In this document: positions 2,720 to 28,968 of the stretch, in pieces
Layout of the letters: every line of letters begins with the position of its first letter
How positions within the stretch are numbered: position 1 is the stretch's first letter
DNA from: a virus
Length of the DNA stretch: 41,546 nucleotides
IMG/VR virus record: IMGVR_UViG_3300036832_000168
Coordinates: 1 to 41,546 of that record
Strand: one strand, 5' to 3'
Program-made: the position numbers and the translations under genes
The notes under the pieces: generated by a model
Told to the model about the DNA's origin: nothing
The model's input: only the letters and a program-made list of their open reading frames with translations
The model's database searches: none

Positions 2720-3655
2720 ATGCCGAAGCTCCGCGCCGAAGACATTGAGGGAATCGATGTCGATTACCTCGATTCTATCGAGTACAGTACGGAGGAATTC
2801 GACCGTTACGACGGCGAGGTGCCGCCCATCGGCCTGACTCTCTCCGGCTACACCAAGAAGATCTGGTGGACTCGTTCCGCCAAGGATGACGCCATGCTCA
2901 AGATCCTCTGGGTCGCTGACGAGAATGAAGGCGACCTGGAGGAATACAACGGCTGTCCCTTCTGGCTCAATGCCGCGCTTATCGGAGGCGCGAAGTTCAA
3001 GTGGGCTCCGTGGATGGAAGTCTACGGCTTCACCCTCAAGAAGGTCCTCACCACGACCTACGTCTCCAAGAAGGAAGACCAGAACGGTGCGCCTGTGGAG
3101 CGTATCGGTTCCTGGAAGCCCGGAGCCGAGAGCGACGCAGCCTGGTGCTATATCGTCACCGACCAGGAGCCGTACAACGGCGTGATGCAGCCGCGCGTCA
3201 AGGAATGGATCGCGTGGGATGACTTCAGCCCGGACGGCGAGGCCGCAGAACCGGGAGACGAGGACGAGCCGGAAGACCTCGTGGATGAGGACGGTAACCT
3301 GGTCGATGAGGACGGCAACCTCATTGACGAGGACGGCAACCTCATCGAGGACGGCGAAGCTGACGGCGACGAGGACGATGAGCCGCCTGAGGACGAGCCT
3401 CCGGCCCGGACTGGCCGCCGCGCTCCGGCCCGGACTGCGCAGTCCGTGCGAGCCGCTAGGACGGCCTCTAAGCCCGCGACGGCCCGGACGGGCTCTAGAA
3501 CGAGGACGAACGCGGCTAAGCCCGCTACGGCCCGCTCCGCTCGCGCTACGGCGACCTCCGGCCGGTCCCGGACGGCGAAGCCCGCTGCGACGGCTGCCCC
3601 GGCTCGCTCTACCCGTACCAAAAGGCGCGGCACCGACAACGACCCGCCATTCTGA
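2720..3655 (+). CDS. Phage single-stranded DNA-binding-like protein with acidic repeats and SSB-type PF tip
   Basis: The 311-residue protein has an N-terminal folded domain (about 1-175) rich in aromatic residues and strands (KIWWTRS, WLNAALIGGAKFKWAPW, EWIAWDDF). An acidic linker follows with three DEDGNL repeats (188-208), then a long basic Ala/Thr/Arg-rich tail (about 225-305) that ends DNDPPF. The terminal acidic-PPF is the signature by which SSB proteins recruit partner proteins, so a role in coating single-stranded DNA and recruiting the adjacent nuclease and ATPase is likely. The fold itself cannot be proven by reading. The tail resembles that of the partial gene at 1-243. A clear ribosome-binding site (GAAAGGCGAAAG) precedes the ATG. 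Confidence 0.7.
   Translation: MPKLRAEDIEGIDVDYLDSIEYSTEEFDRYDGEVPPIGLTLSGYTKKIWWTRSAKDDAMLKILWVADENEGDLEEYNGCPFWLNAALIGGAKFKWAPWMEVYGFTLKKVLTTTYVSKKEDQNGAPVERIGSWKPGAESDAAWCYIVTDQEPYNGVMQPRVKEWIAWDDFSPDGEAAEPGDEDEPEDLVDEDGNLVDEDGNLIDEDGNLIEDGEADGDEDDEPPEDEPPARTGRRAPARTAQSVRAARTASKPATARTGSRTRTNAAKPATARSARATATSGRSRTAKPAATAAPARSTRTKRRGTDNDPPF
3281..3343 (+). repeat. Three tandem 21-bp repeats encoding (V/I)DEDGNL
   Basis: Three consecutive heptapeptide units, VDEDGNL, VDEDGNL and IDEDGNL, occupy residues 188-208 of the SSB-like protein, followed by a truncated IEDGE unit. The DNA copies differ only at a few positions. The acidic linker separates the globular domain from the basic tail. Confidence 0.9.
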
Positions 3656-8247: not shown

Positions 8248-9173
8248 AATTCGTCAACCTCCACCATCATACGACGTTTAGCTTTGGCGACGGGTATGGG
8301 ACTCCACTGGAGCACGTCCTGCGAGCGGTGGAGCTTGGCTATTCGGCCATAGCCGCAACGGAGCACGGGAATGTGTCCTCGCATTTCCAGCTGGAGAAAG
8401 CCGCGCTCGCGAACGGCATCAAGCCGATCTTTGGGCTTGAGGCTTATACCGGCTCCGTGGACCCGGATACCCGGCAGCAGTTCAAGTTCCACCTCACGAT
8501 AATCGCGGAGACTCTCGATGGATACCGTAACCTCAACCGAATCGTCACCCAGTCTTACCTCGACGCTTACTACCATCCAACAGTGGGTGGAGAAAGTCTC
8601 CGAAGGAATGCAGAAGGTCTTGTCATTCTGTCAGGATGTACTGGAAGCCTACTCGCGTGCTCTCTTGTCGGCGGCAAGGGAATTCCTGAGCCGACTTCCC
8701 GCGACGGCTATGCCTGGGATGACGCCAGACTCGTCATCCAGCGCTTTGCCGCTCTATTTGGGTCCCGTTATTATCTTGAGGTCCAGCCATTCTGGGAGCT
8801 GGAGAAGTCCCAGCGTATCAATACCGCCTATGCGAAGCTCTCCAGAGAAATGGGAATCCCGATGGTCGTCACGAATGACGTCCATTATCCCAGGCCAGAG
8901 GACTCTGAAATGCAGGCCATCCTTCACGCGGTACGGCGAGGAAAGCATACCGTAGAGGAAATGCAGCGAGAGTGGAATTACTCCGTTCCCATGACGCTGC
9001 CGTCCTCCGACCGGGACCTAGGCGAGCGGCTTATGAAAACCGGCCTTACGCGAGACGAGGCGTGGCAGGCTATCTGTAATACGGCCGACATAGCGGCCGG
9101 GATAAACTTTAAGCTACCGAAAGCCGAACGGCTAAAGTACCCAATCCAGAAAGAAGACCTAGAGCCGTGGTGA
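8244..9173 (+). CDS. PHP domain of DNA polymerase III alpha (N-terminal half of a split C-family polymerase)
   Basis: The 309-residue protein matches the amino-terminal PHP domain of DnaE/PolC and nothing else of the polymerase. Landmarks are NLHHHTTFSFGDG (HxH metal motif, residues 3-5), TEHGN (canonical TDHGN with Glu for Asp), GIKPIFGLEAY, FHLTIIAE, ILSGCTGS and TNDVHYPRPEDSEMQAILHAVRRGKH, all in family order. Most metal ligands are retained, so a PHP proofreading or structural role remains possible. It ends with FKLPKAERLKYPI, exactly where DnaE passes from PHP to palm. The remainder of the polymerase is at 12281-14560. No intein motif is present at the end. Confidence 0.87.
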   Translation: MKFVNLHHHTTFSFGDGYGTPLEHVLRAVELGYSAIAATEHGNVSSHFQLEKAALANGIKPIFGLEAYTGSVDPDTRQQFKFHLTIIAETLDGYRNLNRIVTQSYLDAYYHPTVGGESLRRNAEGLVILSGCTGSLLACSLVGGKGIPEPTSRDGYAWDDARLVIQRFAALFGSRYYLEVQPFWELEKSQRINTAYAKLSREMGIPMVVTNDVHYPRPEDSEMQAILHAVRRGKHTVEEMQREWNYSVPMTLPSSDRDLGERLMKTGLTRDEAWQAICNTADIAAGINFKLPKAERLKYPIQKEDLEPW

Positions 9174-10003
9174 ATCAAGATGATAAGGACCCTATCTGCT
9201 ACCTAGGGACCCATAGACTGAAATGGCTATGGTCTGGCGATGTTGATTTCCGGCTATTTATTCACCAGGCCGGTATAACAAGGACGGCCCAAAGGGCAAT
9301 AGTTCCATGGGGTATGGACTCCGGAGGCTACTCAACCCTAAGCAGATTCGGCAAATGGGATATAACCCCAGCCCAGTATGTACGCAAGACAGCCTGGTGC
9401 GACCGGCATATTGGCAATCTCGAAATGGCCGCTCCACAGGACTGGATGTGCGAGCCGCCAGTAATCGCAAAGACCGGACTGACTCCTGGAATTCATCAGA
9501 TACGTACAACAATCAACTTCTCAGTACTGAATGAACTATGGCCGCAGCATAGCGATGAGGAAAGCCCGTATTTCCCGGTCCTACAGGCGGCACCAGGAGA
9601 TATTGACGGCTACCTTAGGCATATAGACATGTACGAGGAAGCCGGGATAAACCTATGGGATTACCATACGGTTGGCATCGGAACCGTATGCCGGATTCAG
9701 AGCAACAAGATTATCGGCTTGCTCGCCCGCGAGCTAAATCAGACCGGCCTACGATTCCACTGGTTCGGTGTAAAAACGGACGGCATCCCTCTCGTATGGC
9801 CTCGTGATAAACACCGTAAGGCATTTGGCTCTTTCGATTCCATGGCATGGAGTGCCACTGCCCGATACCGGCCTGTCCTCCTTCCGGAATGTAAGGGGAA
9901 CGGCCATATTAATTGTGCTAACTGCGTTATCTGGGCGCGGAAATGGCGCCAGGAATACATCATGGATACAATCGGTGAACTCAGGAAGGGAAATGGAAAA
10001 TGA
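9167..10003 (+). CDS. dpdA: DpdA-like 7-deazaguanine DNA transglycosylase
   Basis: DpdA is the DNA-acting relative of tRNA-guanine transglycosylase; it exchanges guanine in DNA for a 7-deazaguanine base. In this 278-residue protein the catalytic-site strand WGMDSGGYSTLSRFGKW has Asp51, and GIGTVCRIQSN lies at 170-180. A FHWFGVKTDG strand follows, then FDSMAWSATAR with Asp224 as the likely nucleophile. A Cys/His metal site follows (Cys242, His248, Cys250, Cys253). All are in the order seen in phage DpdA. The start is GTG: 9167 or 9170, the latter overlapping the previous stop as GTGA. It is followed by a precursor transporter and QueC in overlapping frames, forming a DNA-modification cassette. 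Confidence 0.88.
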   Translation: MVNQDDKDPICYLGTHRLKWLWSGDVDFRLFIHQAGITRTAQRAIVPWGMDSGGYSTLSRFGKWDITPAQYVRKTAWCDRHIGNLEMAAPQDWMCEPPVIAKTGLTPGIHQIRTTINFSVLNELWPQHSDEESPYFPVLQAAPGDIDGYLRHIDMYEEAGINLWDYHTVGIGTVCRIQSNKIIGLLARELNQTGLRFHWFGVKTDGIPLVWPRDKHRKAFGSFDSMAWSATARYRPVLLPECKGNGHINCANCVIWARKWRQEYIMDTIGELRKGNGK

Positions 10004-10524
10004 ATAACAAGACAATCGGCGGGATCTTCGCGGCTATATACGTCGCAACGATCGTTCTAGCTAACTGGCTGGTTCACCGGTTCGGGCTTATCCCAGTCGG
10101 ATTCGGGCTCATGGCTCCGGCTGGGGTCTACGCGGCTGGCTTCTCATTCCCGGCCCGTGATTTCGTCCAGAGGTCCCTAGGACGTATAGCCGGAATCGCG
10201 CTTATCCTAGTTGCGGCCGGGCTCTCGTTCGCCTTCAGCCCGACGCTAGCTATCGCTTCCGGGGTGACATTCCTTGTAAGTGAGAGCCTGGACTTTTCCT
10301 TGTATACCTGGCTCGCTAGGCGATGGTTCATTTGGGGCGTTCTAGTCTCCAGCGTTATAGCGGCCATCATAGACTCGCTGCTATTCCTCTATCTCGCGCA
10401 TATCCCGTACAACGTAGCCCTGGCCGGGCAGATAGTAGGTAAACTAGAGGTAATCCTAATCGTGGGTATGCCATTGACATTTATCCTTAAGCGGAAGATA
10501 TCCCTAACCCCAGCAGAGGCGTGA
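10000..10524 (+). CDS. yhhQ: YhhQ/VUT-family queuosine-precursor (preQ0/preQ1) transporter
   Basis: This 174-residue, very hydrophobic protein has five or six predicted membrane helices (AAIYVATIVLANWLV; FGLMAPAGVYAAGFSF; IAGIALILVAAGLSF; WGVLVSSVIAAIIDSLLFLYL; VILIVGMPLTFIL). It carries the family motif around ESLDFSLYTWLAR. YhhQ-family proteins take up 7-deazaguanine precursors. It is shorter than bacterial YhhQ (about 220 aa) but similar to phage forms. It overlaps DpdA by 4 bases and is immediately followed by QueC, so its cargo is most likely the precursor used by DpdA. Confidence 0.82.
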   Translation: MNNKTIGGIFAAIYVATIVLANWLVHRFGLIPVGFGLMAPAGVYAAGFSFPARDFVQRSLGRIAGIALILVAAGLSFAFSPTLAIASGVTFLVSESLDFSLYTWLARRWFIWGVLVSSVIAAIIDSLLFLYLAHIPYNVALAGQIVGKLEVILIVGMPLTFILKRKISLTPAEA

Positions 10525-11150
10525 TGACGACAATAGCAATTCTGTCGGGCGGAATCGACTCAACGTGCGCAGCTTCCGTCACAAGGGCTACATCCGCAGT
10601 CACATTCGACTACGGTCAGCGGCACCGTCGTGAGATAGATGCGGCACGGCGAGTAGCAGAGTATCTCAACATTAGATGGCAAGTGTTCGGGCTACCGGAC
10701 ATACTATCCAAATCAGCATTGCTAGGCGATGCTGATATCCCCCATGGCCGTTACGATGATCCATCGATGAAGATAACCGTCGTACATGGCCGTAATCTTC
10801 TATTCGTTGCGACTGCCATCGCAGCAGTAACTCGGCCGGGAGATAAGCTAGTAACTGGCGTTCATGCCGGAGACCATCCTATATACCCAGACTGTCGTCC
10901 TCGTTTCTGGGCGGCTGTCAGGCTCGCTGCGGAGGCATATAACATCAGCATCATCACTCCATTCATCAGAATGGATAAGGCCGGGGTAATCAAAGCCGGA
11001 CATGCCGCCGGAGCTCCGGTAGGCATTACATGGAGCTGCTATGAAGGAATGTCAGTTCACTGCGGCAAGTGCGGAACCTGTACTGAAAGAATCGAAGCAT
11101 TCAAGCTGGCAGGAATAAACGATCCGACTATCTATGATAAGGAAGCCTAA
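10524..11150 (+). CDS. queC: 7-cyano-7-deazaguanine (preQ0) synthase QueC
   Basis: QueC converts 7-carboxy-7-deazaguanine to preQ0 using ATP and ammonia. The 208-residue protein shows the PP-loop SGGIDST at residues 8-14, GRNLLF at 89-94, and HAGDHPIYPDCRPRFW at 114-129. The zinc site near the C-terminus has Cys172, Cys180, Cys183 and Cys186 (SCYEGMSVHCGKCGTC). The length is close to the family's 220-230. I take ATG 10524 (TGATG overlap with the transporter stop) over the GTG at 10521. The other precursor enzymes (FolE, QueD, QueE) are not in this window; they may be outside it or supplied by the host. Confidence 0.93.
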   Translation: MTTIAILSGGIDSTCAASVTRATSAVTFDYGQRHRREIDAARRVAEYLNIRWQVFGLPDILSKSALLGDADIPHGRYDDPSMKITVVHGRNLLFVATAIAAVTRPGDKLVTGVHAGDHPIYPDCRPRFWAAVRLAAEAYNISIITPFIRMDKAGVIKAGHAAGAPVGITWSCYEGMSVHCGKCGTCTERIEAFKLAGINDPTIYDKEA

Positions 11151-11356
11151 TGCCAAGAAGTGAGAATTCAATCGTTCCGCTACCGGGAAACGTTACGATC
11201 ATGACGGCGAGCCCGGACGGCCGGGCTTATACTCACGTCCAGATTGACCGTGGAATGCTAGAGGATGAGGAGCTATGCCCCACGGCCGTCAGGGAAGTCC
11301 TCCGGCGACTCGATGAAGCACTAGCCGAACTAACCAGGGGAGGACGTACGCCATGA
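11150..11356 (+). CDS. Hypothetical protein, 68 aa
   Basis: Its ATG shares a base with the queC TAA (TAATG) and its stop overlaps the next ATG. The product has a strand-rich N-terminal half (SIVPLPGNVTIMTASPDGRAYTHVQI) and a C-terminal helix (PTAVREVLRRLDEALAELTRGG). There is no known domain. Its position between queC and a methyltransferase leaves open a link to the modification cassette, but nothing in the sequence shows it. Confidence 0.65.
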   Translation: MPRSENSIVPLPGNVTIMTASPDGRAYTHVQIDRGMLEDEELCPTAVREVLRRLDEALAELTRGGRTP

Positions 11357-11883
11357 CCGCAGAATCGTGGAACATGCCGATCGACATTATGGGAATGCTC
11401 CGTCTCGGAGCCGACCGGCCGCGTATCCCGTCCTGGGAGTACGAGTCCAGGCCGCCTGGCGGCCTCGTGCTTAACCTTGGGGCCGGAGCAAAGCTAATCC
11501 AGCACTCCGTGGCCCTGGACCTCCCGGAGTGGGATGCGGATTGTGACCCAATCCCGTACGGAGACGAGACGGTAACAGCCATCTACGCGCTCCATTTCCT
11601 AGAGCACGTAAATAACCCCATCGCGCTACTCCGCGAGTGCCAGCGGGTCCTTAAGCCCAGATGTCATCTCAATGTCGTGGTCCCTCACTGGAATACCCAG
11701 CTCGCGCATTCCGACCTCGACCACAAGTCTTCCTGGGACGAGGAAACATGGAGCCGGATATTCCAGAATGAATACTACGACAAGGACCATAAGGACTGGA
11801 GCTTCCGTATCGGGACCAACGTCCTAATGGGAATCGACGCGCGGAACCTCCTCATCATTACCCAGCTCATCAAGGAACGGTAA
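11353..11883 (+). CDS. Class I SAM-dependent methyltransferase (Methyltransf_11-like)
   Basis: This 176-residue protein has a glycine-rich SAM motif, LNLGAGAKLIQ (about residues 37-47), an acidic motif II (VALDLPEWDAD), and the family signature ALHFLEHVNNPIALLRECQRVLKPRCHLNVVVPHW. This places it in the Methyltransf_11 type of small-molecule or glycan-related enzymes rather than in the DNA adenine/cytosine methylases; no DPPY or PCQ motif is visible. The C-terminal part (SDLDHKSSWDEETW) is polar. It is coupled to both neighbours. Since it follows queC, tailoring of a modified base is possible but unproven. Confidence 0.8.
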   Translation: MTAESWNMPIDIMGMLRLGADRPRIPSWEYESRPPGGLVLNLGAGAKLIQHSVALDLPEWDADCDPIPYGDETVTAIYALHFLEHVNNPIALLRECQRVLKPRCHLNVVVPHWNTQLAHSDLDHKSSWDEETWSRIFQNEYYDKDHKDWSFRIGTNVLMGIDARNLLIITQLIKER

Positions 11884-12281
11884 TGGAACCCATTCCAGAA
11901 CATCTCCAGCATGAGCTGGAAGTCCTCCAGGACCTCCGGGCCGTAGTCCGCGAGGCACACGAGGCCATCCAGGACCTCCGTACGGCTATCCGCGAAGCCC
12001 GCGAGCTGCGGGAGCGCTTCCTAGCAGCTCCGGAGCTAGCGGAACAGCTAGGCGAGCGGGTGAAGGAGGGACTGGACGAGTACGGCAAGGTTCTCCAGGA
12101 GGCTATCAAGGTAGCCGAACAGGCCATGTACAATCGTTTCGATGTCCTGACGGCTATCTGCCTAGGCGAGGACCCGGAATCCATTAGGACAGGTGTCACA
12201 TCAATGCCGCAGCTACTCCGCGAATTCATCGCGACTCGTGGTGACCTCCCTTACCGGCTCGTCAAGATAAAGGACAAGTAA
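11883..12281 (+). CDS. Coiled-coil hypothetical protein, 132 aa
   Basis: The product is almost entirely helical with heptad-like patterns (HELEVLQDLRAVVREAHEAIQDLRTAIREARELRERFL, then LAEQLGERVKEGLDEYGKVLQEAIKVAEQAM). A more globular basic C-terminal part (MPQLLREFIATRGDLPYRLVKIKDK) follows. It probably oligomerises. Its stop overlaps the start of the polymerase gene by one base (TAATG), so it may be made in proportion to the polymerase, possibly as a partner or clamp-like accessory. This is only inference from position. Confidence 0.68.
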   Translation: MEPIPEHLQHELEVLQDLRAVVREAHEAIQDLRTAIREARELRERFLAAPELAEQLGERVKEGLDEYGKVLQEAIKVAEQAMYNRFDVLTAICLGEDPESIRTGVTSMPQLLREFIATRGDLPYRLVKIKDK

Positions 12282-14560
12282 TGCTTGATACGCTTTCTGC
12301 CGAAGATTTGTTGTGGGATTGGGCCCGTAAAGGATGGCGCTATCGCGGCCTAGGACGTATGCCGCAAGCCGAGCAGGACTGGCACGGTGCGCGGGTTAAG
12401 CGTGAGATGGATATGATCCTTGGGAAAGGACTAGCCGACTTCTTTCTGTTTACCTCCGATACGATCCGATGGGCGAAAGACAACGGTGTCGTTATCGGTC
12501 CCGGACGCGGAAGCACCGCCGCGAGCGACGTTGCATACATCACCCGTATTACGGAAGTCAATCCGTTCCGGTACCCGGATATGATCTTTGAGCGCTTCCT
12601 TGACGTTACCCGGCACGACCCACCCGACATCGACGTTGACTGCTCTGACGAGCAGCGCTATATGGTCCGTGACTATCTCGCATATAAGTACGGCCCGGAG
12701 TGCGTAGGCCACATTGGTAACTTTATCCGGTACAAGGCCAAGAATTCGCTCAAGGATGTCGGCCGGGTCTATAACATCCCGCTCCATGCTATAGAACAAA
12801 TCGGCAACGTCGCGATTGACCGGAGTGGTGGTGACTCGCGAGCGGACGCGACCCTGACTGACACCTTTGAGATGTTCCAGTCGGCCCGCGACATCCTGGA
12901 GCAGTATCCAGATATTGCGAAGGCCGCACGGCTTGAGGGTAATTACCGTGGGCTATCTATCCACGCCTGCGGCCTAATGGTGGCTAGCTCGCCGCTAACC
13001 GACGTCTGTGCCGTCTATACCGGGAAGGACGGCGAGCGTGTCGTTAGCCTGGATAAAGTCGATGCGGAGTACATCGATGCGCTTAAACTCGACTTCCTGG
13101 GACTCTCGACTCTTGGCATGATTACCCGGTGCCTCGCTATGGCCGGGCTGACGCTAGCCGACCTCTACGCCATCCCAGACACAGATGAGTCTGCGATCAA
13201 TGTATTCCGGACGAATGACCTCATGGGAGTCTTCCAGTTCGGAGCGCGAGCTACCCGGCTCGTAAACCGTGACGTCCATCCGGATAACTTCTGGCTCATC
13301 GTTTGTATCAACGCTCTCTCGCGGCCGGGTCCTCTATTCTCCGGGCAGACCGCTGAGTTTATCGACGTACGGCACGGCCGGGAGCTCGCGACCTCGCTCC
13401 ATCCGATTGTCGATGATATCACGGCCCATACCTACGGGCAGATGATCTTCCAGGAACATATCCTCCGGGCTCTCCGCGAGATAGGCAATCTCCAGTGGAC
13501 TAACGTTCACCATATCCGGCGCATTATCGCTAAGAAGTCCGGACAGGCGGCATTCCAGCAGAACTTTGAAGCGTTCGCTCAGGGAGCACACGACCTACAC
13601 GGAATCGATCATGAGCTTGCCGACCAGATCTGGCACCGTCTCGTTACGGCTGGGACGTATGCGTTCAACGTCGCTCACGCCGTCTCCTATTCGCTGCTCG
13701 CATTCTGGACCGCCTGGCTCAAGGTCCACTACCCGCTGGAGTTTTACGCGGCCTCACTTGTGAAAGCCGAAGGCGACAAAGAGCTGACGTTTAGGCTCCA
13801 GCGTGACGCACTCGCGCACGGCATCGATATCAAGCCGCCGCAGATAGGGATTAGCGGGAAGACCTGGACTCCGCACTTTGTCGCTAACGACCGGCCGGAG
13901 CTTCGCCGGCTGGAGCTGATAGCCGGCTGGGGAGCCGTTCCGGGTATCGGTCCTAAGAAGGCTCCTGCGCTCGCGGAGGCAGCCGCTACGGCCTCCGCGT
14001 GGGCCGACCTCGCGGAAGTACCAGGCATCGGGCTTGAGACCGTAGAGACGATGCAAGCCTTCTCAAGAGCGAAGGACCCGTTTGGGCTCTACCGGACGGA
14101 GCGCAAGCTAAAGGCCGTACGCCTCTGGATCCGGAAGCAGAAGGTCGTCCCGATGCCCACTCACAACGGCGACGCACTGGCCATAATGAAAGTCCCTGAT
14201 AACCGGAACAGCGGAGGCCGATGGATCGTCGGACCTCGCGTGGTTTACTTCGGGGTAGTAAGGCGTGTCGAGTATAAAGACGTTATCGAGGACGAGCGGA
14301 GCCGTACCGGCGAGGAAATAGAAGATATAGTCAAGCGCCTTAAGCGTCCCGACCTCGCGAAGCGTGCCACGCTTCATATGTACGATGAAGGTGAGGAGGA
14401 AGTTTATGCGAGGATCAACCGCTGGAGATTCCCGGAGCTAGTAAGCACGCTAGAGCGTATCCGGATAAACCACGACGTTGTGGTAATCCTGGGGCACCGT
14501 ATCGCCGGGTTTGGTACTCCAATCCGTACCGACAAAATCTGGGTCATCGACCCTGATTGA
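12281..14560 (+). CDS. dnaE: DNA polymerase III alpha, palm/fingers/HhH/OB part (C-terminal half of a split C-family polymerase)
   Basis: This 759-residue replicative polymerase lacks the PHP domain. The first 70 residues match the palm-linker of DnaE (REMDMILGKGLADFFLFTSDTIRWAK). GPGRGSTAAS follows (73-82), then PPDIDVDC with catalytic Asp116 and Asp118, and the third Asp271 in ALKLDFLGLSTL. SIHACGLMVA and the fingers region are recognisable. Two PGIG helix-hairpin-helix motifs lie at about 550-590, and an OB-like domain starts at FGVVRRVEY (about 660). No 3'-5' exonuclease domain is present. The PHP half is encoded 3.1 kb upstream, with the DpdA/YhhQ/QueC cassette and three further genes between. 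Confidence 0.92.
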   Translation: MLDTLSAEDLLWDWARKGWRYRGLGRMPQAEQDWHGARVKREMDMILGKGLADFFLFTSDTIRWAKDNGVVIGPGRGSTAASDVAYITRITEVNPFRYPDMIFERFLDVTRHDPPDIDVDCSDEQRYMVRDYLAYKYGPECVGHIGNFIRYKAKNSLKDVGRVYNIPLHAIEQIGNVAIDRSGGDSRADATLTDTFEMFQSARDILEQYPDIAKAARLEGNYRGLSIHACGLMVASSPLTDVCAVYTGKDGERVVSLDKVDAEYIDALKLDFLGLSTLGMITRCLAMAGLTLADLYAIPDTDESAINVFRTNDLMGVFQFGARATRLVNRDVHPDNFWLIVCINALSRPGPLFSGQTAEFIDVRHGRELATSLHPIVDDITAHTYGQMIFQEHILRALREIGNLQWTNVHHIRRIIAKKSGQAAFQQNFEAFAQGAHDLHGIDHELADQIWHRLVTAGTYAFNVAHAVSYSLLAFWTAWLKVHYPLEFYAASLVKAEGDKELTFRLQRDALAHGIDIKPPQIGISGKTWTPHFVANDRPELRRLELIAGWGAVPGIGPKKAPALAEAAATASAWADLAEVPGIGLETVETMQAFSRAKDPFGLYRTERKLKAVRLWIRKQKVVPMPTHNGDALAIMKVPDNRNSGGRWIVGPRVVYFGVVRRVEYKDVIEDERSRTGEEIEDIVKRLKRPDLAKRATLHMYDEGEEEVYARINRWRFPELVSTLERIRINHDVVVILGHRIAGFGTPIRTDKIWVIDPD

Positions 14561-15219: not shown

Positions 15220-15891
15220 CTAGCGGCCAGGCCTGCTCAGAGGCTCCGGGACGAGCGGGTCAGATCCGGCCGTCGCGCGGCTCACCATCGCGTCATAGAC
15301 CGGAGTGCTACGACCTCCGGGCTTAACCCATACGCCACGGAACGGCCTCCGGTAGTAGCAGGCCCAGTCGCGCGGCTTGACGGCTGCGAACGCCGACATC
15401 AGGACGGCTCCGGGACGCATCATCTCCATTACGCCCAGTTCCCAGGCAATCTCTACCGCATCCGGGGCAACCGTATCGGCCTCATCTGATTTGAACGGCC
15501 GGGCCATATAGACGATATCCGCATCGCCCCATGGAGGGACTTCTGTGCGGAAGTCCATCTGATGAGTCAAGACGTTAAGCTTTTGTGCCTGATAGATATA
15601 ATCCGGGTTTATCTCATAGCCGATCGCGGTCATATCGAAGTGATACTGTGCGACATAGAGCTTTGTTCCTATCCCGGAACCAGCCTCCATGAAGATGAGG
15701 CGACGGAGGCCGTCCATCGCCGCGCTCCGCGCGACCACTAGCATCCGCGCGAATTCCTGAAGCTCCAGGGGGCTCCATCGCCATAGTTCTGGGTCCGGGT
15801 CAGTCGTCTCCCGCTCGCGGGCTAGCTGGGCCATTTCCAGCTTCGCTAGCTCTGCGAGCGAGAGCGACTGGAAGTCGCCGTCAGGATTCAA
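15220..15891 (-). CDS. SAM-methyltransferase-like protein with a capsid-like C-terminal peptide
   Basis: This is the last gene of the leftward late operon (223 aa). It starts with TTG at 15891, inside the end of the preceding gene. The N-terminal 60 residues are helical and charged. A Rossmann-type core follows: FMEAGSGIGTKLYVAQ (about 88-103, a glycine-rich SAM loop), TAIGYEINPDYIYQA with an acidic residue ending the second strand, then ADIVYMARPF. No catalytic motif for a DNA methylase (DPPY/NPPY) is seen, so the substrate is unknown. The C-terminus is odd: residues 209-218 read GSDPLVPEPL, identical to residues 14-23 of the major capsid protein at 27120-28355. Confidence 0.7.
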   Translation of the reverse strand: MNPDGDFQSLSLAELAKLEMAQLARERETTDPDPELWRWSPLELQEFARMLVVARSAAMDGLRRLIFMEAGSGIGTKLYVAQYHFDMTAIGYEINPDYIYQAQKLNVLTHQMDFRTEVPPWGDADIVYMARPFKSDEADTVAPDAVEIAWELGVMEMMRPGAVLMSAFAAVKPRDWACYYRRPFRGVWVKPGGRSTPVYDAMVSRATAGSDPLVPEPLSRPGR

Positions 15892-16461: not shown

Positions 16462-17265
16462 TCAGAATCCGAGCTTGGTCCAGCCCCATGTGGTGCTGGG
16501 CGGGGTGAGCTGGTACTCGCAGGTGTCACCACCCTCATTGTCGTAATCGATGAAGATCCGGTCGTCGCCGTCCACAGCGATTGAGAGGCCGGTCTTGGCC
16601 TTGGAATTCGGGTCGATAACGCCGTATGATCCACCAGGCGGCATGTACTTGATTTGGCCGGCGCTGTTGATCCTGGCACGGTGCGGACGGTTCTGGCTGT
16701 CGAACGCTACTGCTGCGGTCATCATTCCTCCTGACGTAGCTGGTGGTGCGGGGCTTCCGCCTGCCTTGGCTCGCTTGATAACCTCGTCCATCGGGAAGTT
16801 ACCACAGTCGACGTGGCCGGAGCCCCAGGCTCCGAAGTTGACGTGTTCGCAGATTCCACGGACATCCGGATTCTGCGCCTGGGAATCATTCAGGAGCGTC
16901 CACGGTACGTTGTACTTATCGACACAGTAGCGGATCCATTCCGCTGCGTTGTCGAGTAGGATGCCCTTGGAGTTGAGCCAGGTATCCCGGCTCCACGAGG
17001 AATAGGAGCACATCTCCAGGGAAAGGCAGTACGGATTTGCATTCCCCTGAGTCCATGCCTTGTAGTTCTCATAGACGTACGCGCCGAATACACCACGCTC
17101 ATAGTTATCCGCACCGTGATGACTAGAGCACCCGGCCGACGGATTCTGGAACCACGCGCCAAGATCGCGGATCTTCATCGCGCCTTCGGTCGTATGGAGC
17201 ACGATCTTGTTGTATCCGCTCCGGGAAGTCGAGTAATGCGGCGATGGGATCCATACTTCTTTCAT
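16462..17265 (-). CDS. Endolysin: N-acetylmuramoyl-L-alanine amidase (Amidase_2) with C-terminal beta domain
   Basis: The enzyme cuts the amide bond between muramic acid and the peptide stem to lyse the host. The Amidase_2 fold spans about residues 1-170. The zinc ligand His24 lies in KIVLHTTEG, the catalytic strand in PYCLSLEMCS, and the second metal region in ICEHVNFGAWGSGHVDCGNFP with the typical HxDxG..FP ending. A Pro/Gly/Ala linker (AGGSPAPPATSGGMM) leads to a C-terminal domain of about 90 residues rich in strands (HRARINSAGQIKYM, TGLSIAVDGDDRIFI), probably for cell-wall binding. There is no signal peptide, so export would need a holin. The start overlaps the preceding stop (ATGA). Confidence 0.9.
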   Translation of the reverse strand: MKEVWIPSPHYSTSRSGYNKIVLHTTEGAMKIRDLGAWFQNPSAGCSSHHGADNYERGVFGAYVYENYKAWTQGNANPYCLSLEMCSYSSWSRDTWLNSKGILLDNAAEWIRYCVDKYNVPWTLLNDSQAQNPDVRGICEHVNFGAWGSGHVDCGNFPMDEVIKRAKAGGSPAPPATSGGMMTAAVAFDSQNRPHRARINSAGQIKYMPPGGSYGVIDPNSKAKTGLSIAVDGDDRIFIDYDNEGGDTCEYQLTPPSTTWGWTKLGF

Positions 17266-27119: not shown

Positions 27120-28355
27120 CTAAGAACGCTGAGGCCGCTGGCCCTGCCGTTCGGCCGGCTCCCGTTCCTTCTGCTCTTCCTTCTGCTCCCGCTCCTGCGC
27201 CCGTCGCCTCTGGGTCAGCTGCTTGCGGCCTTCCTCTGCGTCCTCCTGCTGCGCTTGCGCGCCTCGCTCCTGGGCCTCGTACGCCTCCACGTCCTGGGCG
27301 TTTTCCAAGACGACCTCCTGCTGGTCCCCTGCGAAAGAACCAACGTACGGATACGGAGGTGCCTGGATGACGCTGATCGGAGAAATGGTGGGCGGCGTGG
27401 CTCCGGTCGGGAGGATCGCGCCGAACGGCCACCGGGCCGTGATCGCGTCTCCGGGCCGCATGATTGTGACCGGGTTGACGGTCGCGTACGCGAGGCGCAT
27501 CGTCATCCGCATCGCCACGGAGTCCTGCTGCATGAGATTGAGAATGACCTTGCCGGTATCGTCGGAGATCACGCCTTCGGTGAACATCTTGAAGCTGATG
27601 TCCTGGCGCATCCCGATGATCGACTTGGTGAAGTCGCCGCAGAGCAGGACGGCTCCGGCCAGGCCCAGCTGCCAGGAACCGTTGTTGATCTCGGAAAGGT
27701 CGTAGCCGTAGAGCGAGCCGCCAGGACTGCTCGACATATCGGGCTGGTAAATCGGCGCACCCTGCGCCGACCGCATCCCGACGAGCTGCCACGACATTCC
27801 CGGCTGGGCCGCGAATCCGTTGACGGTGTAGCCGGACTGAGCCATCTGTACGCCCAGCTTGGATACGTCCACGCCGAGGTCGATGTTCGCGCCCTGGACC
27901 ACAAAGTGGCCCGACTTGCCGGCCCCAGGGAATACGGCCTCACCCCAGGTCACCGGCTTGTTGATGCCCCACAGGACGGCGAGGTCGATAAGCTGACCGA
28001 CTGCCTCTGTGATCCGGGGCTGGACCTCGGACCAGAGCGGAACGTCGGCATCGTCCAGGTAGGCTTCCGGAATCGGGACGATACAGGCCAGCTCTTCCAC
28101 GACCATGACGACGTTCTTCCACTGCTGGAGGCTCGTCTGCTTCATGCCGGTGTCGCCACCCACCCAGTATGCTACCGGGAGGACGTCAAGGACCGGCATT
28201 CGCTGGGTCTTGGCGGAAAGGATGGTCTTGTTCATGAGACGGAGCGCTGCCGATGCTTTCGGAGCCTCCTGGATGATTGCGGCCGCGAGCGGTTCCGGAA
28301 CCAGCGGGTCAGAACCAGTGGTTGTGCGGCCGACGTGCGTACTATACGTAGGCAC
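27120..28355 (-). CDS. Major capsid protein (HK97 fold) with a charged C-terminal extension
   Basis: The 411-residue product starts with GTG at 28355 after an AGGAAGG site. The family-typical N-arm is TGSDPLVPEPLAAAIIQEAPKASAALRLMNK, followed by the E-loop and spine regions (LPVAYWVGGDTGMKQTSLQQWKNVVMVVEELACIVPIPEAYLDD). The P-domain and A-domain follow, including LAVLWGINKPV, LLCGDFTKSIIGMRQDISFKM and QDSVAMRMTMRLAYATVNP. The core ends at about residue 350; the last 60 residues (ENAQDVEAYEAQERGAQ..., RRRAQEREQKEEQKEREPAE) form a Glu/Gln/Arg-rich helical tail not usual for HK97-fold capsids. It is encoded just after the scaffold. Confidence 0.92.
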   Translation of the reverse strand: MPTYSTHVGRTTTGSDPLVPEPLAAAIIQEAPKASAALRLMNKTILSAKTQRMPVLDVLPVAYWVGGDTGMKQTSLQQWKNVVMVVEELACIVPIPEAYLDDADVPLWSEVQPRITEAVGQLIDLAVLWGINKPVTWGEAVFPGAGKSGHFVVQGANIDLGVDVSKLGVQMAQSGYTVNGFAAQPGMSWQLVGMRSAQGAPIYQPDMSSSPGGSLYGYDLSEINNGSWQLGLAGAVLLCGDFTKSIIGMRQDISFKMFTEGVISDDTGKVILNLMQQDSVAMRMTMRLAYATVNPVTIMRPGDAITARWPFGAILPTGATPPTISPISVIQAPPYPYVGSFAGDQQEVVLENAQDVEAYEAQERGAQAQQEDAEEGRKQLTQRRRAQEREQKEEQKEREPAERQGQRPQRS

Positions 28356-28377: not shown

Positions 28378-28968
28378 CTAGCGTTGCTCTAGGAGATTCC
28401 GGAACCATTGGTCCGGTGTCTGGGGAGTCTGCTCCCCAGCCGGAGCCGAACCGGCTCTCATCGACTCGACTGGCCGTGCGGCCGCAATCCCGTTACGGGA
28501 TTGCTGACCCGCTACCATCTGACTAGCTAGCTGAGTAGCCGTCTCCTGGATGACGCGAGCAATCGTCTCTGCGTGACCGTTCATCTCATCTTCCGTTCCG
28601 GAAGGGATGTAGTCGATCAGCTCGACAGGTAGGTCATTGGCGGCTGCGGCCATTACCCGGTTATGCGTGGTACGGGCCTCATCGCGTTCCTGCTGTACTT
28701 CGGCCAGTTCTGCCTTGAGCCTATCCGACTCAGACATTCCAGCCTTCTTCATTTCCGACAGCTCTTTCGCGGCTGCGGAATTCGCCTTGGACCTGTTCTC
28801 CCACTGGCGGGCTTTTGACTTCCAATCCGCCAGCTGGGCCGCTAGATCGGGCTCGCCGGAGTCGCCTGTGCCATCTTCAGTGATATCGTCGGATACCGTT
28901 CCGGCATCCTCGGCACCCTCTTGACCCTCTGCCGTTCCGGCCGGGTCTAGGCCAGCGTCCTCACTCAT
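28378..28968 (-). CDS. Scaffolding protein
   Basis: The 196-residue product has the classical composition: an acidic Gly-rich N-terminus (AGLDPAGTAEGQEGAEDAGT), a long central coiled coil (LAAQLADWKSKARQWENRSKANSAAAKELSEMKK, then SDRLKAELAEVQQERDEARTTHNRV), and a C-terminal DQWFRNLLEQR hook. It is encoded 22 bases upstream of the major capsid gene. It would template prohead assembly and be lost or cleaved during maturation. No prohead protease is obvious in the window. Confidence 0.87.
   Translation of the reverse strand: MSEDAGLDPAGTAEGQEGAEDAGTVSDDITEDGTGDSGEPDLAAQLADWKSKARQWENRSKANSAAAKELSEMKKAGMSESDRLKAELAEVQQERDEARTTHNRVMAAAANDLPVELIDYIPSGTEDEMNGHAETIARVIQETATQLASQMVAGQQSRNGIAAARPVESMRAGSAPAGEQTPQTPDQWFRNLLEQR

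Follow-up and report, generated by a model that had tools for sequence, protein, structure and literature searches.

The locus examined here raises the question of why a methyltransferase-like protein of a tailed phage should end in a peptide that also lies near the start of the phage's own major capsid protein (MCP). The window, i.e., the whole stretch of DNA analyzed, is IMG/VR virus record IMGVR_UViG_3300036832_000168, 41,546 bases in length and encoding 53 proteins. A sequence-only reading had pointed to the decapeptide GSDPLVPEPL, common to residues 209-218 of the enzyme (15238..15267, minus strand) and residues 14-23 of the MCP (28287..28316, minus strand), and had offered three explanations: a recombination scar, a mimic targeting the enzyme to the capsid, and an assembly decoy. 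The coordinates of the decapeptide are correct, and the likeness continues upstream, making the shared segment larger than was claimed. The C-terminal tail of the enzyme, YDAMVSRATAGSDPLVPEP (residues 199-217, 15241..15297, minus strand), and the MCP N-arm, YSTHVGRTTTGSDPLVPEP (residues 4-22, 28290..28346, minus strand), which would be the model of the mimic, both follow a motif of approximately 19 residues, Y-x3-[IV]-x-R-x(4-5)-D-P-L-V-P-[EQ]-P. Between Y199-P217 of the enzyme and Y4-P22 of the MCP, 13 of 19 residues are identical with equal spacing, and with the enzyme as query against the record, the MCP arm was matched at an E-value of 5e-5. Short Pro/Glu-rich peptides are frequent, and a chance or convergent proline-rich tail could be imagined; however, only about 8.5e-5 shared 10-mers are expected among the 53 window proteins, shared 8-mers averaged 0.04 over 300 shuffles, and the family-wide conservation and co-variation described below make this explanation extremely improbable.

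The enzyme gene (15220..15891, minus strand) begins with a TTG start codon at 15891 and encodes a protein of 223 amino acids. The window protein itself has no direct family match in Pfam and PHROG searches. Many homologues do, however, hit methyltransferase models of Pfam, with Methyltransf_25 the best at 1.4e-6. The AF2 model (mean pLDDT 82) has a class I methyltransferase fold up to approximately residue 192, with low confidence at residues 199-223. The nearest folds include TehB and the protein lysine methyltransferases aKMT and DOT1L; the best Foldseek match is aKMT (5fad, E 1.6e-8), and VIA comparison gave Z 14.8 (rmsd 2.9, 151 aligned) to TehB and Z 14.2 (rmsd 3.1, 138 aligned) to aKMT. 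The glycine-rich SAM-binding motif I, EAGSGIGTK, is conserved across 25 homologues, with A70, G71, G73, I74, G75, T76 and K77 invariant and E69 nearly so. By modeled fold and motif I, the protein is class I SAM-dependent methyltransferase-like, with predicted catalytic activity, and it may methylate phage DNA or a head protein. The early cluster encodes another methyltransferase at 11353-11883 (Methyltransf_11, 3e-8), which carries no tail. Nearby, at 9167-11150, are genes for DpdA (Pfam E 4e-59) and QueC (5e-46), separated by a vitamin/PreQ0-transporter-like match (Vut_1) just below the cut-off; judging from the DpdA and QueC genes, the phage DNA probably carries 7-deazaguanine bases. Elsewhere in the window, the protein encoded at 2720-3655 contains a short acidic repeat, DEDGNLVDEDGNLIDEDGNLI, at 3270-3340, followed by a low-complexity Ala/Arg/Thr-rich end.

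The MCP (27120..28355, minus strand; 411 amino acids) matches Pfam Phage_capsid at 3.4e-21 and PHROG 10 at 5e-42. Among solved structures the Muddy capsid (8edu) is nearest, at E 1.3e-90 by sequence, and the MCP model aligns to it with Z 22.6 (rmsd 4.7, 258 aligned), placing the MCP in the HK97 fold. Among 42 MCPs with identities down to 47%, five arm residues never change (R10, D16, L18, P20 and P22) and three more (Y4, P17 and V19) hardly do, in agreement with the earlier placing of the segment in a conserved N-arm. The MCP arm (residues 1-19), like the enzyme tail, is modeled by AF2 with low confidence, as would fit arms that become ordered only upon docking. In two of the related records, L078 and L079 (IMGVR 3300031912_000032 and 3300031954_000041), the MCP frame is split into two overlapping ORFs; these records are near-identical and come from different metagenomes, so that the split reflects either a genuine frameshift or a sequencing error common to both.

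Homologues of the enzyme were collected from viral contigs and whole records, giving 36 distinct sequences including that of the window, or 35 with a complete 3′ end after one cut by a contig end was left out. The tail is present in 29 of these 35, down to approximately 45-50% identity, behind a linker that varies from 4 to 16 residues. In a comparison of 28 tails, five motif residues never vary, namely Y, R, D, V and the last P; the search pattern demanded these five, and no tail failed for want of one. Between tails, the DPLVPEP stretch of seven codons has a mean pS of 0.71 and a mean pN of 0.11. The sequence-only reading had suggested that the peptide is kept by selection, given that the two DNA copies agree at 24 of 30 bases, with all six differences at silent third positions. 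The counts are confirmed, but the silence of the differences follows from the identity of the two peptides and is no proof by itself; the third positions agree at 4 of 10 codons, roughly as in unrelated pairs. Selection cannot be read from one such pair, and it is the homologues that support it. The presence of the tail in nearly all of them leaves the sequence-only reading standing.

Six of the 35 homologues lack the tail (L165, L202, L167, L168, L209 and L031). Four of these (L165, L167, L168 and L209) have different short C-terminal ends that are partly alike, SVQRAVTRSL or SVQSSVIKTL; a search of the available sequences found no convincing match that would make these ends mimics of another protein. 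In cultured phages, tblastn returned no convincing enzyme homologue, only two weak partial matches (E 0.07 and 0.2), and bacterial genome contigs yielded none. The tail peptide alone had no tblastn match in the phage collection, and the tag was not found in cultured phages. The closest cultured MCP relatives examined, those of Muddy, JacoRen57, ReT1v-1 and Bbif-1, repeat their own arm nowhere else.

Where homologous tails do change by non-synonymous substitution, the MCP arm of that phage changes in parallel, and this is more telling evidence than an unchanging tail would be. Among 20 phages with the enzyme tail and both genes, which are related to each other, the MCP arms fall into two classes, GSD-PLVPEP and [P/V]D-PLVPQP, and the class of the tail (GSD or other) agrees with that of its own MCP arm in all 20. 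One class change suffices on the MCP tree but three are needed on the enzyme tree, with a switch of the tail each time, suggesting that the tail tracks the capsid with which it cohabits rather than the descent of the enzyme; of these three independent contrasts, only one sits on well-supported branches. Similarity between tail and arm is greater in own pairs than in permuted pairs (p 0.004), and a partial Mantel test of tail and arm distances, given enzyme-core and MCP-body distances, gave r 0.50 (p 0.001). The tag usually departs from the arm of its own phage at several positions, as in RQEPHDPLVPEP against RSSGTPDPLVPQP, suggesting mimicry of a pattern rather than of an exact sequence.

These comparisons also bear on the proposal of a functionless scar left by recombination or gene conversion. 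Third codon positions agree at 0.35 with the own arm and at 0.33 with foreign arms; being no nearer to the own arm, they exclude recent DNA copying and rule out gene conversion between the MCP 5′ end and the enzyme 3′ end. Ancient copying of the MCP 5′ end is a possible origin of the tail. A scar, however, would hardly be conserved in 29 homologues over approximately 50% protein divergence, with synonymous sites near saturation and no excess DNA likeness to the own MCP gene, and this explanation is very improbable.

The mimic is the best supported of the three explanations first offered, carried by the conservation and co-variation of the tail, with docking itself proposed on these grounds. 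We assign a probability of roughly 0.58 to the tail being a portable capsid-docking tag that mimics the MCP N-arm and holds the enzyme at the head. The folded domain ends at approximately residue 192, and the short variable linker would present Y-x3-[IV]-x-R-x4-5-DPLVPEP. This motif would fill the site of an MCP N-arm, either on a neighboring MCP or on the shell during assembly, and might thereby hold a few enzyme copies in or on the head. Tag and arm would then be under one structural constraint, and the tag would be expected to change when a lineage carries another MCP type. N-arms of HK97-type capsids contact neighboring subunits and stabilize the shell (PMC12749128, PMC12407261), and both scaffold peptides (PMC5644958) and encapsulin cargo peptides (PMC6668986) bind beside the N-arm or N-terminal helix; a flexible extension bearing the motif could dock in the place of an arm. 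More tentatively, tailed phages with this type of capsid might use the N-arm sequence of their MCP as a portable address, tagged enzymes and small head proteins filling vacant arm-docking sites, such as those left by the absent penton at the portal vertex, thereby placing cargo at a defined position on the shell, with co-evolution of tag and shell.

The genomic position of the enzyme gene is consistent with an association with the head. It is the last gene of the late minus-strand operon, with the endolysin gene (16462..17265, minus strand) as its upstream neighbor and a convergent DNA polymerase III alpha-like gene (12281..14560, plus strand; PHROG 11165, 1e-240) beyond it. This order of endolysin, tailed enzyme and convergent DNA polymerase is kept in the tailed relatives that were mapped, and the tailed enzyme shares the strand of the MCP in all 21 records in which the two strands could be compared. 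Tailless enzymes of the same family, in contrast, lie opposite the MCP in 3 of 3 cases and on the DNA polymerase strand in the three mapped. The association between tail and MCP strand (Fisher 5e-4, a nominal p since the phages are related) suggests that tail and late-operon position go together; the exception is L031, a distant (~30% identity), tailless enzyme encoded near the MCP gene on the same strand. Standing at the end of the head-tail-lysis operon, the enzyme is probably made late. This position counts against the suggestion that the free enzyme acts as an assembly decoy, occupying arm-docking sites to tune capsid size or assembly rate. Competition between a native and a foreign peptide for an MCP site is known from the 80alpha scaffold and SaPI1 CpmB (PMC5644958, PMC12749128); however, a decoy would not need the intact SAM-binding motif that is conserved here, and we regard this role as improbable and less likely than that of a mimic.

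A portable binding motif would be expected to recur at either end of unrelated proteins, and this is what was observed. The degenerate pattern DPLVP-x-P occurs at 54 sites in 50 whole records, while the reversed control pattern occurs at none; the sites that were placed belong to MCP arms, enzyme tails and small-protein carriers, and in records with both genes they are those of the MCP and the enzyme. Three further kinds of carrier, all unrelated small proteins in related phages, were identified. The first is a head-region protein with the tag at its N-terminus, encoded approximately 1.2 kb upstream of the MCP in L094, L115 and L143 and also found in L135; its GTG start is preceded in L094 and L135 by GGGAGGT, which resembles a ribosome-binding site. 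In L115 (6976-7341) and L094, translation of this protein could also begin at a second codon, the ATG that opens MATPDVATMR; its GGAAGG-like ribosome-binding site lies within the tag region, and tagged and untagged forms may both arise. The cultured phage KimJongPhill encodes a relative of the L115-type protein, gp11, between MuF and scaffold genes, and gp11 lacks the N-terminal tag. A weak match of the L115 protein to PHROG 9161 was dropped, as it also occurred in 7 of 14 control genomes. The second carrier, in L307, is a 60-residue protein with PVYDAMIKRAGDGPDPLVPEPL followed by a basic end, encoded between MuF-like and scaffold genes, in the gap between the MuF-like gene and a gene of the first kind. 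The third, in L248, is a 73-residue protein with the tag NNYAAMIRRTPDGSDPLVPEPGP at its C-terminus and a start that overlaps the preceding stop; it is encoded on the DNA polymerase strand and not on the late strand, which counts against a docking tag. A C-terminal DPLVPEP in L271 was set aside as probably due to chance, lying in a short ORF and lacking the motif Arg. Two of these small proteins are encoded among the head genes.

The location of these two carriers near MuF-like and scaffold genes is also what the main rival to the docking tag would predict, namely recognition of the motif by a third partner in the head (scaffold, MuF/portal vertex or protease), which would recruit the MCP and tagged proteins to the assembling prohead. 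The scaffolding protein is a possible partner of this kind, its separate gene adjoining that of the MCP in the window (28378..28968, minus strand; Pfam DUF4355 1.1e-5, PHROG head scaffolding), and in 80alpha the scaffold C-terminus touches the MCP N-arm (PMC5644958). In mature HK97-type heads, however, the N-arm binds the E-loop and neighboring subunits (PMC12749128), and such a lasting contact between MCPs would alone explain the conservation of the motif in the MCP; we consider recognition by a third component rather unlikely.

A different role for the tail would be that of a pseudosubstrate or recognition element, the enzyme methylating the MCP arm and its own tail regulating the active site. 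The lysine methyltransferases among the nearest folds and the invariant Arg common to arm and tail would suit such a role, but the motif is without a conserved lysine, TehB matches the fold equally well, the tail is of low confidence in the model, and the other tag carriers are not methyltransferases, making this role distinctly improbable.

Head-targeting peptides are already known from T4, P1 and encapsulins, and by analogy the docking tag proposed here would work alike, although its sequence resembles none of them. The T4 capsid targeting sequence (CTS) is N-terminal and cleaved and has not been described as copying the MCP, whereas the tag here copies the MCP N-arm and is C-terminal in its main carrier. 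The CTS is a short conserved peptide that brings diverse phage proteins into the head (PMC3012670), and the peptide described here is similarly common to otherwise unrelated proteins, i.e., the enzyme and the L115-type, 73-residue and 60-residue proteins. In P1, the anti-restriction protein DarB enters the head via a terminal signal, 30 residues of which suffice to carry a reporter into the capsid, and even the Dar proteins themselves yielded no consensus signal (PMC9024508). DarB resembles the enzyme as a phage protein with a terminal peptide, in the enzyme a putative head signal, though that of DarB is N-terminal. The N-terminal placement of T4- and P1-type signals recurs here only in the head-region proteins, the tag being C-terminal in the enzyme and the L248 protein. 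Encapsulin cargo peptides are likewise terminal peptides beyond the folded domain of an enzyme, as is the tail after approximately residue 192, but the one compared, TVGSLIQ, is unlike the tag motif. Encapsulins are also non-viral shells, while portal, large terminase, scaffold and major tail protein are present here as in a complete tailed phage, and the tag copies the shell's own arm. The C-termini of SaPI1 CpmB and the 80alpha scaffold show that similar peptides can reach one MCP site near the N-arm helix (PMC5644958, PMC12749128); these peptides are of the scaffold type, neither copies of an MCP arm nor carried on an enzyme. In the open-access literature searched, no report of a head-targeting peptide copying the MCP arm was found, and the exact peptide does not occur in the text.

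If the tag docks as proposed, it would represent natural cargo loading in true phage heads via mimicry of the shell's own arm, and thereby a phage counterpart to encapsulin cargo peptides. It would explain how the enzyme could travel in or on the virion; once there, the enzyme could act on phage DNA after ejection, by analogy with the virion-borne anti-restriction proteins of P1 that protect its DNA (PMC9024508). The motif would also provide a short signature by which head-associated proteins may be spotted among uncharacterized phage proteins.
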